Shown here: positions 8,683-18,918 of the stretch, in pieces
Position numbering within the stretch: position 1 is the first letter of the stretch
Layout: the number at the start of each line of letters is the position of its first letter
The notes under the pieces: generated by a model
The model's input: only the letters and a program-made list of their open reading frames with translations
Database searches by the model: none
Told to the model about the DNA's origin: nothing
Assembly (NCBI GenBank): GCA_018825785.1
Contig: JAHKAY010000037.1
Coordinates: 1-62,445 of the forward strand
Direction: 5' to 3'
Source of the DNA: Chloroflexota bacterium
Lineage (GTDB): Bacteria > Chloroflexota > Dehalococcoidia > JACVQG01 > JAHKAY01
DNA length: 62,445 nucleotides
Made by a program: the position numbers and the translations under genes

Positions 8683-9657
8683 ATGACCGGACTCTCCGAC
8701 TCGTTTCACCGGCCCATTGACTATCTGCGCATATCGGTCACCGACCGCTGCAATCTGAGGTGTTTCTACTGCATGCCCGAGAAGGGCGTGCCCCTGCTCC
8801 CCCGCGAGAACGTCCTCAGCTACGAGGAGATAGCCCGGGTGGCCGCGGCGGCGGTGGGGCTGGGAATCAGCAAGCTGCGGCTTACTGGGGGCGAGCCTCT
8901 GGTGAGAGCCGGGCTGGTGGACCTGGTCTCAATGCTCGCAGCAATACCGGGGCTGGACGACCTCTCCCTTACCACGAATGGCCTCCTTCTCGCGGGCCTT
9001 GCCTCCGATTTGAAGAAGGCCGGGCTGAGGAGGGTCAACGTCAGCCTCGACACGTTCAATCCCGAGCGCTTTCGACGTATCACCGGCGGGGACGGGCCGG
9101 AGGCGGTTCTCAAGGGGATTGAGGCGGCTGGTGAGGTCGGCCTGGACCCGGTGAAGGTCAACACGGTGGTGATGCCAGGGGTTAACGACGACGAGCTTTT
9201 GGCCTTCGGGCAGAGGAGCGTGAAGGGCTGGCACGTCCGCTTCATTGAGATCATGCCCTTCGGCCAGGCCCTGGGTCTCCCCGCTTTACCCGCGCCCCGG
9301 ATAGCGTCCCGGCTTGAGGAGGCTTTTGGCCCACTGTCGCCGGCTCTGAGCAGGGGTTGCGGGCCTGCCCGCTATTTCCGTCTCCCCGGGTCCAGGGGCA
9401 CCATCGGCTTCATCTCGCCGGTGAGCCAGCACTTCTGCTTCGCCTGCAACCGCCTCCGCCTTACCGCTGAGGGGAGGCTCCGGCCCTGCCTTCTCAACGA
9501 TACCGAGGTGAACCTCAGGTCTCCACTCAGTGCGGGCGCCTCAGCCGAGGAGTTGAAGGGCCTCATCCGGCAGGTGGTGGCCAGCAAGCCGCTGAAGCAC
9601 CGTCTGGAAGAGAACAGGCCGCTGGACCTCAAGCGCATGTCGCGCCTTGGCGGCTAG
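8683..9657 (+). CDS. moaA: GTP 3',8-cyclase MoaA
   Basis: A radical SAM enzyme of 324 residues for the first step of molybdenum cofactor synthesis. The N-terminal SAM-cluster motif is CNLRCFYC (Cys23, 27, 30), followed by TGGEPL. The C-terminal second cluster is FCFACNRLRL with a later LRPC. The protein ends in RLGG, matching the conserved GG tail that enters the active site. It lies 78 bases after fdhD on the same strand and supplies the cofactor its neighbours use. No other moa or moe genes are in the window. Confidence 0.92.
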   Translation: MTGLSDSFHRPIDYLRISVTDRCNLRCFYCMPEKGVPLLPRENVLSYEEIARVAAAAVGLGISKLRLTGGEPLVRAGLVDLVSMLAAIPGLDDLSLTTNGLLLAGLASDLKKAGLRRVNVSLDTFNPERFRRITGGDGPEAVLKGIEAAGEVGLDPVKVNTVVMPGVNDDELLAFGQRSVKGWHVRFIEIMPFGQALGLPALPAPRIASRLEEAFGPLSPALSRGCGPARYFRLPGSRGTIGFISPVSQHFCFACNRLRLTAEGRLRPCLLNDTEVNLRSPLSAGASAEELKGLIRQVVASKPLKHRLEENRPLDLKRMSRLGG

Positions 9658-11918: not shown

Positions 11919-12560
11919 ATGGCTAGTAGTGAGCGAGAAACACCAGGAATGGGAACAGGCCCTGGCGGGCCAAAAGGGGGCGGCAGACTTGTTACGCGGC
12001 GGGCCCTGCTGCGGCGTCTGGGCGTGGGCACGGCAGCAGTAGTGGGCCTTTCGTACGTCAAGCCATCCCTGCTCACTGTGGGCGTGTCAAAGGCGTATGC
12101 CAATGGCGTCTATGCTACCCCCACTCCTACTCCTACTCCTACACCCACACCGGCTGCCGGGCTCACCCCCGGCTACTGGAAGAACTGGCGGAATCAGTAC
12201 ACTCAGGCACAGTTCCTGGGCCTGCTGAGCGGCACCATTGCCGACAACAATATACCAAAAGCCGATGCTATCTTTGACAAATGGAGCGCAAATCCCGGGA
12301 AAGAGATGACTATCCTGCGGGCCTTCCTGCTGGCAGTGCAGCTCACCATCCGTCTTGTCTCTTCAGGCTTGCCTGTGCCGGCCGGCGTCAATCTGTCCCC
12401 AAGCTCTCCTCTTCCCGGCGGCGGGACACTAGGTGGCGCCATAACCGATGCGCTCTCGCTGGAGGGAACATACCCCTATTCCGCCCAGGGCGTTAGCAGC
12501 GGCGACCGAGCTTTCGCCCTTGCGACGAAGGACAGACTGGCGGTGTTGCTCACGCTCTAG
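11919..12560 (+). CDS. Tat-type exported protein with Pro-Thr linker and GYWKN motif
   Basis: A 213-residue protein from ATG 11919, which follows GAGGAGG; an upstream in-frame start lacks a ribosome site. Residues about 26-62 form a twin-arginine-like signal: TRRALLRRLGVG, a hydrophobic stretch, then SKAYA. A spacer of about seven Thr-Pro repeats follows, then LTPGYWKNW, a motif I have seen in secreted proteins of several phyla but cannot assign a function. The rest looks helical, with no catalytic motif. Next come a PqqD-like gene 18 bases on and an HprK-like kinase gene. Such partners usually act on a peptide or protein substrate, so this protein may be that substrate; this is inference. 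Confidence 0.7.
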   Translation: MASSERETPGMGTGPGGPKGGGRLVTRRALLRRLGVGTAAVVGLSYVKPSLLTVGVSKAYANGVYATPTPTPTPTPTPAAGLTPGYWKNWRNQYTQAQFLGLLSGTIADNNIPKADAIFDKWSANPGKEMTILRAFLLAVQLTIRLVSSGLPVPAGVNLSPSSPLPGGGTLGGAITDALSLEGTYPYSAQGVSSGDRAFALATKDRLAVLLTL

Positions 12561-12578
12561 GGAGCGGGCGGGCGCCAC

Positions 12579-12899
12579 ATGCATGCGGAGAGGCTACGGA
12601 CCGGCGCGAAGTCTGGGGAGCATAGGCTGCCGCTCCGGGCCAGCGGCCTTCTGGAATACGGGGTCGAGGGCCAGCTTATCCTGTGTGAACCCAGTGTTGA
12701 ACAGGTCCACTTCCTGAATGCTACGGCCGCAGCTATATGGTTGCTGTGCGACGGCCGCCATACGGAGGCTGATATCGTTGCCGAACTGGCAGCCCTTTTC
12801 AATTGGGACGTGCCCGGTGTGGAAAGCGACGTCAGGGAGACACTGGCTGATTTTCTGAGGAAAGGCCTGCTCCGGGCTCCCCCAGGGTATGATGCCTAG
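12579..12899 (+). CDS. PqqD-like protein (RiPP recognition element fold)
   Basis: A 106-residue protein with the PqqD pattern: EGQLILCEPSVEQVHFLNATAAA then IWLLCDGRHTEADIVAEL and a C-terminal FLRKGLL. PqqD domains bind leader peptides and present them to modifying enzymes. It starts 18 bases after the GYWKN gene, and the next gene begins inside its last codons, so all three are one unit. No radical SAM gene is adjacent, so it is not part of a pyrroloquinoline quinone cluster. Confidence 0.75.
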   Translation: MHAERLRTGAKSGEHRLPLRASGLLEYGVEGQLILCEPSVEQVHFLNATAAAIWLLCDGRHTEADIVAELAALFNWDVPGVESDVRETLADFLRKGLLRAPPGYDA

Positions 12900-13833
12900 C
12901 TCCCTCGCCTTGGGGACGCCGCCTTCGCCCCCGGATATATCTGTCGCTGATTGGAGGGAGGAGGAGTTTGCCGTCCTCAACCTTCGAATCGCCCTGCGGA
13001 CCAATGAGCCGGGGCTGGCAGACCACCTGCGGACCATATTCCCTGGCCAGGAGGGTGTTGTTGCCACAGTACCGCCTGGGCGCCAGGACTATGTGGTTTC
13101 CTGCGTCCGCAACCAGGCTCATCAGCGGGCATACCAGGTAGCCACGGGCGGGCGCGTGGTGCTGAGGACCTGGGACCGGGATGCTCTGGCGACATACCTG
13201 GAAAGGTCCATCTGCAACGCCATAGCGGAGCACCTGGGCCATCGATATGTCCTCATCCATGCTGCGGCCCTTGCTCATGGGGGGTGCGGTATCCTATTCC
13301 CCGGCGCTTCCGGTGCTGGCAAGAGCTTGACTGCGGCCGCGCTGGCTGCGAACGGTTTCCAGTACTTCTCCGATGAGGTTGCAGTGGTGACCGACGATGG
13401 GCGCCTGCGCCCCTTCCCCAAGGTCATCTCACTGAAAGCAGACGGCTGGCGCAAACTCGCAGAGGCCTTTCCCTTTGTGGCACCTGCTGGCGGCTGGCTA
13501 CCCTCGGGTGAAGGCGGCCTCTACCACCTGGACCCGTCCCATCGGCTGAGAAGCGGGGGGCGGTGGGCCGGTCCTCCGGTCAGGTTCATCATTGTGCCTT
13601 CCCGCAGGGCCGGGGCGTCTACCATCCTGGAGCCGTTGCCAAAACCAGCCGCCCTGACACTGCTGCTGGAACAGTCCCTGAACCTGCGTCAGCTGGGGAC
13701 CCGGGCAATGGGTGTCCTCGTACGCCTGGTAAAAGAGTCTGAATGTTTTACGCTGGCTGCTGGGTCTCTCCGGGAAGCTGGCTCGCTGGTGGCGCGGCTT
13801 ACCCAGCTCAGGGGGGGGCCTGGATTGCGGTAG
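12889..13833 (+). CDS. HPr kinase-like P-loop kinase
   Basis: A 314-residue protein. Its C-terminal domain has the P-loop GASGAGKS (residues about 138-145) and a downstream YFSDEVAVV, the Walker-B-like site of HprK-type kinases. The N-terminal 120 residues are not the normal HPr kinase domain. Similar truncated or altered HprK proteins sit next to PqqD-like genes in peptide-modification cassettes (for example SynChlorMet ScmC, and lasso peptide kinases), where some phosphorylate the peptide. It overlaps the PqqD gene by 11 bases. Target and activity are unknown; no phosphotransferase-system genes are nearby. Confidence 0.75.
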   Translation: MMPSSLALGTPPSPPDISVADWREEEFAVLNLRIALRTNEPGLADHLRTIFPGQEGVVATVPPGRQDYVVSCVRNQAHQRAYQVATGGRVVLRTWDRDALATYLERSICNAIAEHLGHRYVLIHAAALAHGGCGILFPGASGAGKSLTAAALAANGFQYFSDEVAVVTDDGRLRPFPKVISLKADGWRKLAEAFPFVAPAGGWLPSGEGGLYHLDPSHRLRSGGRWAGPPVRFIIVPSRRAGASTILEPLPKPAALTLLLEQSLNLRQLGTRAMGVLVRLVKESECFTLAAGSLREAGSLVARLTQLRGGPGLR

Positions 13834-14046
13834 CAGCCCGCCTTATCGGGGGCTGGTGATGGGGTTCCCAGCTTCGCATATTGGTTTTGCCTCTCTATCT
13901 TCTTCTTCAACACCTTTGCTGTTAAGATGCCTCTTCATTCATAACGGGGCTAGTGAGAGTGTAGTTCTAAAGGACCGAAGGGGTAGAATTCGGCAGGGGG
14001 CATTTGCGGAATGGCCAGGAAGGCACCTCTGGAAAGGGGTGGGGGG

Positions 14047-14790
14047 ATGAGGGGGAAGGTCTTAGGTAGCGCCGGCATGGGTGCTGCGCTGTTGGTGCTG
14101 GGTGCTTTGCCTATGCTTGCGGCGGGGACCAGCGTTGTAACTACACCGGTCTTTGCGACCCACGGCATGAGCGGCTCCGTGGCCGGATTTCGCACTGAGG
14201 AAACGATATTGGGCCGCAACTCGGTGAGACTTTCTATCCCTCAGGGTGTGATAGGAGAAGTCTACAACCTGGGGCTTAACGCTGAGGTGGCTATGCCGGG
14301 CGAGCACGTGGGTCAGGGCATGTCTATCTACGACGGCGTCTCGTTCAGGGCAAAGCCAGGTCCGCCCGGAGTCCACGGCCCCCTCTTTGTATCGATTATC
14401 CTGTATGACGACACCCACGATGTCTGGGTGTCCATGCTTAACTACAGCCCTGTTTGGACGGAGCCTGATGCTGGGGGCTGGTCCACGGTCACCGTTCCCG
14501 CTGGAGCCTCTTGGGATGCCTGGACTTTCGGTGGAGATGCCTGGCCTGTTGGTCGCGACCCGGGATATGTTTCCCTGGCGCAGTGGGACCAATACATTCA
14601 CGCCCAGGGCATCAAGGCCGAGGTCAAGAAGCTGAACATCCAGTTCGGGTATGGGTGGAACGCCTGGGGCGCTGTCTACGTTGATGGACTCGCCGCCCAC
14701 GGGTTCCTCTTGGACTTTGAGCCGAAGCCTCACGCTGAGGATGGCGAGGAGGATGAAGAGGGGGACGGGGGCGATGGTAATCGGAAGTAG
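14047..14790 (+). CDS. Exported hypothetical protein, probably beta-rich
   Basis: About 247 residues from ATG 14047, which has a G-rich ribosome site; ATG 14011 is also possible and adds 12 residues. A signal peptide is clear (MRGKVLGS, a hydrophobic core, then PVFA). The mature part is rich in Gly, Trp, Tyr and Val with alternating hydrophobics (VRLSIP, LFVSIILYDD, VYVDGLAAHGF), suggesting a jelly-roll or beta-sandwich fold. The C-terminus is a highly acidic Glu/Asp/Gly tail. I do not recognise the family. Its leader shares AAAGGACCGA with the leader of the GYWKN gene, so it may belong to the same response. Confidence 0.65.
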   Translation: MRGKVLGSAGMGAALLVLGALPMLAAGTSVVTTPVFATHGMSGSVAGFRTEETILGRNSVRLSIPQGVIGEVYNLGLNAEVAMPGEHVGQGMSIYDGVSFRAKPGPPGVHGPLFVSIILYDDTHDVWVSMLNYSPVWTEPDAGGWSTVTVPAGASWDAWTFGGDAWPVGRDPGYVSLAQWDQYIHAQGIKAEVKKLNIQFGYGWNAWGAVYVDGLAAHGFLLDFEPKPHAEDGEEDEEGDGGDGNRK

Positions 14791-15637: not shown

Positions 15638-15925
15638 CTAGTCCTCCTCCACCACGAAGCTGTCTCTCAGCTTCGTGGTTCTTGACCCGTCGACAGCTTT
15701 GTAGCGCACATTATAGGGCCCCGACGCCGCCGTGTCCGCTGAGGTGTAATCGTAGTGATACTTGCCCACAGCGTCCTTCACCATCTGCGCCTCGTTCACA
15801 ACCACTGTCCCAGCCGGGTCCTTCACCTTGATGGTAGGCGTGCTGGCGGGGTCCACGTAGCTCCCCGCGCTGTCCTTCACCTCCAGGCTGAGAACGACTG
15901 TTTCACCTCGCTGGAAAACTGCCAT
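15638..15925 (-). CDS. Phage tail-associated Ig-like protein
   Basis: A 95-residue protein reading as one immunoglobulin-like beta domain: VVLSLEVKDSAGSYVDPAST, TIKVKDPAGTVV, then YHYDYTSADTAASGPYNVRYKAVDG. Such domains (BppU or invasin-like) are common on phage tail and capsid decorations. Its ATG lies directly after the stop of the repeat-rich tail protein upstream, so it is the last gene of the reverse-strand tail-like set. Confidence 0.6.
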   Translation of the reverse strand: MAVFQRGETVVLSLEVKDSAGSYVDPASTPTIKVKDPAGTVVVNEAQMVKDAVGKYHYDYTSADTAASGPYNVRYKAVDGSRTTKLRDSFVVEED

Positions 15926-17704
15926 TCAGCCCCCCTTCATAGTAGCTTCAAGCTGGAGCCCTCTCCCCGAGACGGCACTCATGGTCAGGGCCGGGCCCGT
16001 CGTCCCACTCATCTCAAGGCCCTCCTTCGCCAGAGAGGCCAGCACCAGCAACCGGACGACCAGCACCGCCGCCGCCACCTGGTCAGCCAGGGCCAGGCTA
16101 TCAGCAATGCTCTTGAACTGCTTTGGGCTCGCCGTCTCGACCAGGGCCAGGGCATCGGCCACAGTGAGCCTGGCTGTGGTCCCCAGGGCGTCAGAGATGT
16201 TCAGTCCCTGGGTCAGGGAGACAAATCCCTTTAAGGAAAGGGTCTCTGCCAGGGCCAGGGCATCCGCAACTAGCTTCTGAACGGCCCCCGTATTCACTGA
16301 TAGGGCATCGGCAAGGGCCAAGACTTCAACCAGGCTCAGGAAAGCTTTTGGTGTCCCGGAAGGGAGTGCTTCGGCTAAGCCGAGGCTCTCGGACAGGCTA
16401 AGGGAGGCTTTGGGAGTTCCTGAGGGGAGGGCTTCCGCCACCCCGAGAGCTTCAGTGAGAGTTAGCTTGGCCGAAATGCCTGGGGCGTCATCGGCCAGGG
16501 CCAGGGCGTCGGTGACGGTTTTCTGGGTAACTCCCGCAGGCTGGGCCAGCTCAAACCCGATGTAGGTTATCACCATTGAGCCAGAAGACCCGCCAGTTAC
16601 CACCCCCCAGTCCAAGAGGTCGGTAGCAACACAGGAAATGGCATTGGTTGTATCCTCAAATGTCCCAGTTGCGCCGCTACCAACCGTAACCGAAAGTGTG
16701 CTATTCCCTGCGTTCTGTCTCAAGGTGAAAGTGGAGTTCCCGTTCAGACTGTTGGTCGGCACCCTTACAAATAGATTTTTGGCCGTGAAGCTAGCCTGGG
16801 CCGCCACCTGGGTATTTGCTTCGGTAGTAGCGTAGGCCTGAACCCCTGCCTCCAACGGAACATATCTTGTGATGCCATAAGCAATCGTGTTGGTGCCGGG
16901 GTTTGCGGCGATTACCTGTCTCCCCGCCGAGTTTGATTTCATCTGCCAAATCATAATCGCGAAGGAGCCCGAAGACCCGCCAGTGGCCACCTGGTAGGCC
17001 ACGGCATCTCCTGAAGCGATGGAATCAGAGTTCACCGTGTCCTCAAAAGCCCCCGTTGTGGAAGCCCCTACGGAGACGGACTGGGCACCGTCGGCAGCGT
17101 TTTTTCTGGTCCTGACCGTGGTGGTGCCATTCACACTGTTGGACTGGACATAGATGCGGAAGTTGGACAACGTGGCGGCCACCCGAAAGATATACTGGGA
17201 GCGGGACTCGGTGGTGTTGTATCTGGCCTCCCCCCCTATAGGAGCGTATGTGGTGGTCCCAAAGTTCACCGATGTGGAAACCACATCCCCAGCGATTAAG
17301 ACTGGGGTGGTGTTGCTGGCCGTGGCAAGGGTGTAGGCGATAATTGCCAGGGTCAAAGAGCCGCCTGCGCCCACAACTGTCTGGGTATTGAAGAGGTCCC
17401 CTGCTACCAGGTTGTCGGAGTTAACGGAGTCCTGGAAGACCCCTGTGGCCCCAGCCCCTATGGAGACGCTTTGAGCACCGTTTGCTGTATTCTTCCTGCT
17501 CCTCACCGTTGAAGAGGCGGTGGTGGCGTTGGCGAGCACCCTCACATAGAGGTCGGCCAAGGTATAACTGTCCCTGGCGATTGCCTGATGGCGGGCTTCG
17601 GCGCCCGACTCAGTAAACCCCCCAGAGGGATTATGATACTTCGTAGCGGAGGCGGACAGGACAACGCCCGTGCTGTGCCCAGCCACCAACGGATAGGTGG
17701 GCAT
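15926..17704 (-). CDS. Phage tail fibre-like repeat protein
   Basis: About 592 residues from ATG 17704, which overlaps the upstream gene's TAA. The N-terminal two thirds hold three or more degenerate beta repeats with phrases like TVRTRKNAADGAQSVSVGAS and GTFEDTTNAIS. The C-terminal third has about eight helical repeats of the form LADALALAE, two joined by the identical linker ALPSGTPKA. This looks like a tail fibre or baseplate adhesin. The longer open frame to 17827 has no ribosome site and would overlap the upstream gene. Confidence 0.65.
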   Translation of the reverse strand: MPTYPLVAGHSTGVVLSASATKYHNPSGGFTESGAEARHQAIARDSYTLADLYVRVLANATTASSTVRSRKNTANGAQSVSIGAGATGVFQDSVNSDNLVAGDLFNTQTVVGAGGSLTLAIIAYTLATASNTTPVLIAGDVVSTSVNFGTTTYAPIGGEARYNTTESRSQYIFRVAATLSNFRIYVQSNSVNGTTTVRTRKNAADGAQSVSVGASTTGAFEDTVNSDSIASGDAVAYQVATGGSSGSFAIMIWQMKSNSAGRQVIAANPGTNTIAYGITRYVPLEAGVQAYATTEANTQVAAQASFTAKNLFVRVPTNSLNGNSTFTLRQNAGNSTLSVTVGSGATGTFEDTTNAISCVATDLLDWGVVTGGSSGSMVITYIGFELAQPAGVTQKTVTDALALADDAPGISAKLTLTEALGVAEALPSGTPKASLSLSESLGLAEALPSGTPKAFLSLVEVLALADALSVNTGAVQKLVADALALAETLSLKGFVSLTQGLNISDALGTTARLTVADALALVETASPKQFKSIADSLALADQVAAAVLVVRLLVLASLAKEGLEMSGTTGPALTMSAVSGRGLQLEATMKGG

Positions 17705-18072
17705 TAGTTGATTTTCACCTTCCCAGCCCCAAAAGCTGTGTCGCAAGCACTCTGGAGCTGATTTTTCTGCGAAGCGGTGAGGTTGGGGATGACCACCTGG
17801 AGGACCCTTGCCGTGTCGTAATACCAAAGCCAGCCTTCCGGGTCCAGAGCGCCTAGCTGAGCCTTGGCGGTATCATAGGTGCGGTTTTTCCTCCGATTCT
17901 CACTGACCACCTCATCATAGAGGCCGACTCCGCCAAGCAATCTGTGGGCAGGACAGAGCTTGACTACCTTAGCAAGCGAGTGGACTCGTGAAGCCTCCGA
18001 GGTAGCATCATCCCAACTGTATTCCAGGACGCACTCGCAGGTATCCGGTCTCCAGGTCGTTGTCCTTATCAT
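17704..18072 (-). CDS. Hypothetical protein of the tail-like cluster
   Basis: A 122-residue soluble protein. Cysteines occur as CECVLEY near the start and in VVKLCPAHRL. The C-terminal half reads LTASQKNQLQSACDTAFG. No family recognised. It overlaps the tail fibre-like gene by the TAATG stop-start junction, and AGGGAGGGAAAG precedes its ATG, so it is translated with its neighbours. Confidence 0.55.
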   Translation of the reverse strand: MIRTTTWRPDTCECVLEYSWDDATSEASRVHSLAKVVKLCPAHRLLGGVGLYDEVVSENRRKNRTYDTAKAQLGALDPEGWLWYYDTARVLQVVIPNLTASQKNQLQSACDTAFGAGKVKIN

Positions 18073-18178
18073 CTTTCCCTCCCTAGGATAGGGTCTGCTG
18101 GCAAATAATCCCCTTTTCTCTTGCTACGGTGCTTCTCCCTTGGTCTATCCCAACCCTGGTCGGCATTTCGTCGGCCTC

Positions 18179-18690
18179 CTAGCTCATTGTGACCTGGATG
18201 GTGAGCTCCCAGGTCTGCCCACTGGTCTTGGTGCCCTGAGCCGATACCTTGCGGACCAGGTTCTTGTTGGGGGTAGCGCCGTGTCCACGGTGAACTCCTG
18301 CCAGGCGAAGTTGGCCTCGGTTCCCCCGAAAGTCCCCCGGAAGCTCACGGTCTGGGCCGACCTGGAGGGGTAGGTCGCGTCCATAGCCTTAAAGGCCGTG
18401 CTGGTCCCCAGGAGCCCGGTCTGGGTGGCAGCCTCCGCCGTGGTGCTGTCCCCTACCCCCACCCGAGCGTTGGCGTTGTTGTAGGCCGTGGGGGTGCCCA
18501 GGCCACAGGCCAGGTCCAGCAGCTCGGCCATGCCCTCATTGAGGCCGATATTGCCCTCGACCTGGGAGACCTTGTAGGGCTGGTCCCGCCGATGAGCCTC
18601 GTCATCGGCGAACTTTCTGATGATAAACCGGGTCTTCAGCTTGAGATGCCCATGCCTCCGCTTTTTCTGCTCCGCCTTTACCCCAACCAC
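18179..18690 (-). pseudogene. Phage structural-like gene with a 3' frameshift
   Basis: GTG 18690 follows AGGAGG and fits better than the upstream frame start at 18744. The body reads as a structural protein (KVSQVEGNIGLNEGMAELLD, TYPSRSAQTVSFRGTFGG). After VDT the open frame turns into an unlikely Arg/Pro-rich tail ending at 18184. Adding one base near 18283 restores ATPNKNLVRKVSAQGTKTSG, then QTWELTIQVTMS and TAG at 18179-18181, a far more natural beta-strand end. So the gene has lost one base, or the assembly has an error. Confidence 0.6.
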
Positions 18691-18918
18691 AGTTCCTCCT
18701 TTCTCATCTCTCAATCCATCTGGCAACGCCATCGGAAAAGGCACACCAGAACAGATGAGCTAAATACTACCATGGCAGTGGCTTGGCGTCAAGCGTCTTT
18801 TGTCTTGCTGGCGGCGAAAAACCCTGCTTAAATGACAGGTGGCCGGCGCAAGCCCTCCCAGGACTATTTGGCCGGTTGAAAAGGGCCCTGGAGTGGGGCT
18901 ATCATTGTCCTGACTCTG

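Follow-up and report, generated by a model that had tools for sequence, protein, structure and literature searches.

The window, that is, the whole stretch of 62,445 nucleotides that was analysed from the genome of a Chloroflexota bacterium (G000; 1.59 Mb in 60 contigs), carries a tight plus-strand operon of three open reading frames, all present at the positions in Table 1, in which P0001 and P0002 are separated by 18 bp and P0002 and P0003 overlap by 11 bp. The preliminary description had read these as three tightly coupled genes for an exported protein with a Pro-Thr linker, a PqqD protein and an HprK-like kinase, and the open reading frames, their spacing and the profile matches agree with that assignment.

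Table 1. Coordinates of the operon genes and of their main sequence features in the window
Feature	Position	Strand	Basis
P0001, candidate substrate: 213-aa protein with Tat signal, PT linker and GYWKN motif	11919..12560	+	sequence; matched by the leader model, as is a paralogue in G000
P0001, Tat-signal twin arginine (R27, R28)	11997..12002	+	sequence; TatC in genome
P0001, Y46-V-K-P-S-L51 in the c-region of the signal, predicted motif for RRE binding; Y lies at -16 relative to the predicted site of cleavage	12054..12071	+	same place in 14 Y-type leaders
P0001, predicted signal peptidase I site AYA61/N62	12093..12101	+	sequence; signal peptidase I in genome
P0001, Thr-Pro linker	12117..12152	+	sequence; L002, L069, L121 and L122 likewise have PT or PS linkers
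P0001, GYWKN motif of the cargo	12171..12185	+	sequence; TPGYWAN in L117, TQGYWVN in L120
P0002, discrete PqqD-type RiPP recognition element (RRE)	12579..12899	+	PF05402 5.9e-14; TbiB1 best PDB match
P0003, HprK-like P-loop kinase	12889..13833	+	profile matches, HprK alignment, predicted fold
P0003, H124, matched to the conserved HprK His	13258..13260	+	alignment
P0003, Walker A GASGAGKS	13303..13326	+	sequence, alignment
P0003, D162, matched to the conserved HprK Asp	13372..13374	+	alignment

The ATG of P0001 is preceded by a GGAGG ribosome-binding site, and the protein shows, in this order, the twin arginine, a Tat-like hydrophobic stretch, the YVKPSL motif, the predicted cleavage site, the Thr-Pro linker and the sequence TPGYWKN. 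Its score against the NCBIfam model TAT_signal_seq (TIGR01409) is 15.2 bits, slightly below the cut-off of 16.7; the features of a Tat substrate, namely twin arginine, moderately hydrophobic stretch and AxA site, are all found, and both TatC and signal peptidase I are encoded in the window genome. An AlphaFold model of P0001 alone (pLDDT 36) was unusable. P0002 matches the Pfam family PqqD with 52.6 bits, above the gathering cut-off of 23.4, and its best PDB match is a lasso RRE (E 0.0048). P0003 matches HprK_rel_A (TIGR04352) with an E-value of 1.8e-31, but at 109 bits stays below the cut-off of 200; the Walker A motif, the conserved His and Asp and the predicted fold (pLDDT 74), which matches PEPCK first and HprK next, place it in the single superfamily that these two families share.

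Upstream of the operon lie formate dehydrogenase, fdhD and moaA-like genes, and the moaA-like gene (8683-9657) is the nearest radical SAM gene; the operon itself contains no radical SAM, cyclase or peptidase gene, as had been noted at the outset. The GC content falls from about 0.63 to 0.55-0.60 across much of the region between 9 and 19 kb, with 0.62 over the kinase gene itself, and a close kinase is absent from the sampled genomes of the same family and order, including two genomes of the same family; because of this GC dip and this absence, the distribution of the operon looks patchy, and it was perhaps acquired. Phage-like genes (phrog_23653, 9.7e-37) occupy the minus strand downstream, at 15638-18744, in the lower-GC stretch. 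The second exported protein, which the preliminary description had placed after the operon, is real (14047-14790), has an acidic C-terminal tail and lacks a significant family match; it starts 213 bp downstream and carries an ordinary signal with neither Tat features nor YxxP, so that its membership of the cassette is improbable and it is probably unrelated. Elsewhere, G000 encodes two further PqqD genes and two further HprK-like matches. A separate cluster on contig C47 (L009, 3869-8838) combines PqqD, radical SAM and HprK-like genes with a SipW-like signal peptidase and an ABC transporter, a gene content that resembles the set of the linear polyphosphorylated peptides (LPPs) with a radical SAM gene added.

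The conserved element of the system is the leader, not the GYWKN domain, and the cargo varies. A second G000 protein, encoded by a solitary gene upstream of nuo genes on contig C52, has the leader and linker of P0001 with a different cargo, and between P0001 and the proteins of L117, L119 and L120 the GYWKN motif alone can be aligned, without significant homology of the domain. When the whole of P0001 was searched against 301 genomes of the phylum, the only true match was in its own genome, the remainder being Thr-Pro linkers or spurious; plasmid searches with P0001, P0003 and the C52 paralogue gave no match, and no relative of P0003 was confirmed among viral contigs. What recurs together is leader, PqqD and kinase. 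At L119 (139-2988, at a contig end), a Tat-leader protein and PqqD are directly preceded upstream by a lasso-type precursor (MRKEYNSPEVVVYGRIDQVTLGEG) together with an ABC transporter. The Tat-leader proteins at L121 (6127-7791) and L122 (5788-6930) combine Thr-Pro repeats of great length and poly-Asp runs with LPVAG at the C terminus, followed by a hydrophobic stretch and a basic tail, suggesting anchoring in the cell wall or membrane.

Kinases of the P0003 clade in other genomes of the phylum were read together with their neighbourhoods; a broad alignment of the kinases proved too diverse to be used on contigs, and a narrower version returned four loci, two of them already known. The kinase class, a discrete PqqD domain and a Tat protein bearing [YW]xxP are found together in the window and in nine other Chloroflexota loci (L067, L069 with two such proteins, L070, L073, L074, L076, L120, L154 and L155). 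The gene order Tat protein-PqqD-kinase recurs in G241 (L067, also L084), G158 (L069) and G065 (L070), and in G160, G080, G046, G055 and G120 (L073, L074, L076, L154 and L155) Trp replaces Tyr in an otherwise equal set. A leader model of 44 columns, built from four genomes and run on 400 Chloroflexota genomes, gave full-length matches in only six (G000, G065, G158, G241, G558 and G014), and the close kinase clade occurs in five of the 400, all among these six; the association (p 7e-11 overall) is circular for the four genomes that built the model, and kinship among loci inflates the p values. Two of the six were held out of the model: G558 has the kinase at the start of one contig and leader and PqqD at the end of another, and in G014 a more distant kinase and PqqD lie directly beside the leader gene. 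A second sample of 158 genomes added leader proteins in G693 (89% complete) and G694 (78%), in neither of which a kinase of this kind was detected, and these are the main exceptions. PqqD and kinase occur without a recognised leader protein at L068, L079, L147, L148 and L153, and L082 combines a discrete PqqD with a Tat protein lacking the motif.

The position of the motif is constant, with Tyr 16 residues ahead of the predicted signal peptidase site (-16) in 14 of 14 Y-type leaders and Trp at -15 in all five W-type leaders (L073, L074, L076, L154 and L155), where the cleavage sites of L120 (ALA) and L155 (VHA) were re-read by eye; the distance from the twin arginine to Tyr is 18-19 residues in the Y-type leaders. 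Among 29 Tat-like signals from the fetched DNA, which consists of loci taken around the module, 12 have the motif, all from module loci or module-holding genomes, and 17, some of them loose matches, lack it. The original assignment of P0002 as a leader binder is strengthened by the finding of YxxPxL inside the signal peptide, the binding itself being predicted. An Asp in the Tyr pocket of the RRE was set aside as evidence, since it seems to be general among PqqD proteins.

In a further group of loci (L071, L072, L081, L146, L149, L150, L151, L157 and L158), PqqD is fused in front of a Tat-like signal, with the kinase adjacent, and the cargo consists of exported, mostly Cys-rich proteins. All nine loci lack [YW]xxP ahead of the cleavage site; when the loci that visibly encode an exported protein are counted, the motif is present in 10 of 11 with discrete and in none of nine with fused PqqD (Fisher p 1.2e-4, a descriptive value, as the loci are related). 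Such an absence would be expected if the motif serves to recruit PqqD, since a tethered PqqD could do without it. PqqD-kinase fusions also exist, in Terriglobia (L085) and Contendobacter (L086), and, judged from the sequences, both kinds of fusion tie together substrate, adaptor and kinase. The earlier proposal that the Tat-exported protein, PqqD and kinase belong together is thus borne out by these fusions and by recurrence across families. Two or three tandem PqqD-Tat fusion genes with differing Cys-rich cargo accompany one kinase at L149 (6874-8264) and L151 (3886-6809), and at L071 (7111-8502) an HprK-like kinase is fused behind a thioredoxin/peroxiredoxin-like domain and adjoins a PqqD-Tat fusion with Cys-rich cargo.

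LPPs have recently been described (Popov et al. 2026; PMC13381572); their precursors measure 35-200 aa, and the systems comprise an RRE, an HprK-like kinase and an NTP transferase. The leaders of LppA and PbaA have Y-16 and W-15, respectively, RRE binding depends on Y-16 and P-13, Ser3 of the core is phosphorylated by LppK, the leader is cleaved by an SpI-type peptidase, and RREs guide the HprK-like kinases of both the LPP and the paeninodin systems (PMC13381572). The cassette resembles the LPP systems in its discrete RRE, its HprK-like kinase with intact motifs, the lack of a cyclase, the Y(-16)xxP leader motif, a shared leader with variable C termini, predicted SpI-type cleavage and an NTP transferase in relatives, whereas its leader is a Tat signal and its cargo reaches several hundred residues; by their description, LPPs occur in Bacillota only and have an exporter and a dedicated peptidase of the SpI type, and that description does not mention a Tat signal as the leader. 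Beyond YxxP, the LPP consensus VLxHQxIxFETxxS is absent from the leader; Ser at core position 3 is missing in P0001 (NGVYATP), with Ser at +2/+3 in most relatives, and no dedicated SpI-like peptidase, MsbA-like exporter or NTP transferase lies within the window operon. Because Ser3, peptidase and exporter are lacking, the cassette is classified here as an LPP-like variant and not as a member of the LPPs. The lasso kinases PadeK, ThcoK and PsmK of the paeninodin and pseudomycoidin systems are likewise HprK-like and act on a precursor with an RRE-binding leader, and the W(-15)xxP of paeninodin corresponds to the W-type leaders; these kinases, however, phosphorylate the C-terminal Ser of small lasso precursors, which depend on the B2 and C enzymes to mature, and neither the macrolactam cyclase C nor the leader peptidase B2 is found near the operon. 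Phosphorylation of a C-terminal Ser as in paeninodin was ruled out, as no such residue is conserved.

Other known systems share single aspects. HPr-rel-A is a predicted pair of a kinase (TIGR04352) and a PqqD-family chaperone (TIGR04353), and both window proteins match its models, far under the cut-offs (109 of 200 and 23 of 35 bits, respectively); no paper naming its substrate was found. TorD and DmsD, redox enzyme maturation proteins, are described as cytoplasmic chaperones that stay bound to Tat signal peptides until maturation is complete (PMC3316669), but they belong to other families and serve cofactor insertion, not covalent protein modification. The precursors of DUF2282 RiPPs with a DUF2063-associated RRE also bear an export signal peptide (PMC12710340), although in this case the signals are of the Sec type, the leaders are variable without a recognised RRE motif, and the system is not kinase based.

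Gene order, gene families, intact kinase motifs, constant motif spacing, recurrence, both kinds of fusion and the presence of TatC and signal peptidase I point to a cassette that is probably a modification module akin to that of the LPPs (linear phosphorylated, RiPP-like) but redirected to Tat substrates, in which the Tat signal doubles as a RiPP leader. The Tat pathway exports folded proteins. In the order of events that we infer, PqqD would bind Y(-16)xxPxL of the signal c-region in the cytoplasm and bring this motif, along with the first residues of the mature chain next to it, to the HprK-like kinase, which would phosphorylate a hydroxyl residue near the future N terminus; Tat would export the folded, modified protein, and signal peptidase I would cut off leader and motif together. 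The C52 leader protein would probably be served in trans. Since Tat and signal peptidase I would take over their roles, no dedicated ABC exporter or peptidase would be needed, and the use of Tat would likewise be explained. The weakest point of the phosphorylation claim is the acceptor: Ser stands at +2/+3 in 12 of the 14 Y-type and in all five W-type leaders, and the two G000 leader proteins (NGVYATPTP and QGRYGPTP) have none there, with Tyr at +4 followed by Thr-Pro; candidate acceptors in P0001 are Tyr65, Thr67 and the linker, and in the L067, L069 or L117 proteins Ser at +2/+3. LppK rejected Thr or Tyr in place of S3 (PMC13381572). A more tentative reading, considered possible though not probable, is that the RRE acts as a Tat proofreading chaperone whose occupancy of the c-region would delay the folded protein until its modification by the kinase, close to the later N terminus, is complete, which would make a covalent modification the gate for export; the signal peptide would then be export signal, RiPP leader and quality-control tag in one, and fused substrates would carry their own chaperone.

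The phosphate may also be only an intermediate, with an NTP_transf_5-type transferase placing a sugar or nucleotide on the phosphorylated residue, as in pseudomycoidin, where the kinase/transferase pair puts hexoses on phosphoserine, giving a phosphoglycosylated surface protein. An NTP_transf_5 gene does lie beside the module in L082 (PF14907, 1.8e-32), similar-looking genes occur in L072, L074, L075, L076 and L086, and another transferase-like gene of similar appearance is found on C47 of G000 (L010), so that relatives having the gene may extend the phosphate with a sugar or nucleotide; for the window the idea seems unlikely, given that no such gene was found near the operon or near its closest relatives, L067 and L069.

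Still less probable is that kinase and PqqD serve another substrate, either a small peptide that was not called as a gene or the RiPP products of C47, with the Tat protein as a mere neighbour and its motif coincidental. The additional PqqD genes and HprK-like matches of G000, one set of which lies inside the radical SAM/SpI/ABC cluster, and the lasso-type precursor near the leader protein of L119 would be consistent with this, but recurrence with unrelated cargo, the constant motif position and PqqD-Tat signal fusions adjoining the kinase argue against it. A third alternative, in which Tat c-regions ordinarily contain YxxP and chance or a mobile island joined the three genes, is very improbable and already disfavoured: the lower-GC stretch, the phage-like genes downstream and the lack of the kinase in most sampled relatives speak for it, whereas the motif at that spacing is absent from all 17 other Tat-like signals of the fetched loci, and the three-part association recurs in several families.

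The novelty of a kinase-modified linear product had been overstated, since LPPs are already described (PMC13381572). No paper on Tat-exported RRE substrates was found in the open-licence papers searched, and what is apparently new here is the leader within a Tat signal, the protein-sized cargo, the orphan substrates, the occurrence in Chloroflexota and the PqqD-Tat fusions, which also offer a compact system for bench work. If the retargeting of an LPP-like module to Tat substrates is true, the recognition of RiPP leaders would cover exported proteins of full protein size as well as small peptides, and the field of Tat signal chaperones would be linked with that of RiPP recognition elements; a fixed code, in which Y at -16 or W at -15 is followed by xxP and then by AxA, would allow substrates to be identified from nothing but their sequence, even orphans encoded at a distance from the enzymes, and Chloroflexota would then be predicted to make surface or secreted proteins that are phosphorylated.
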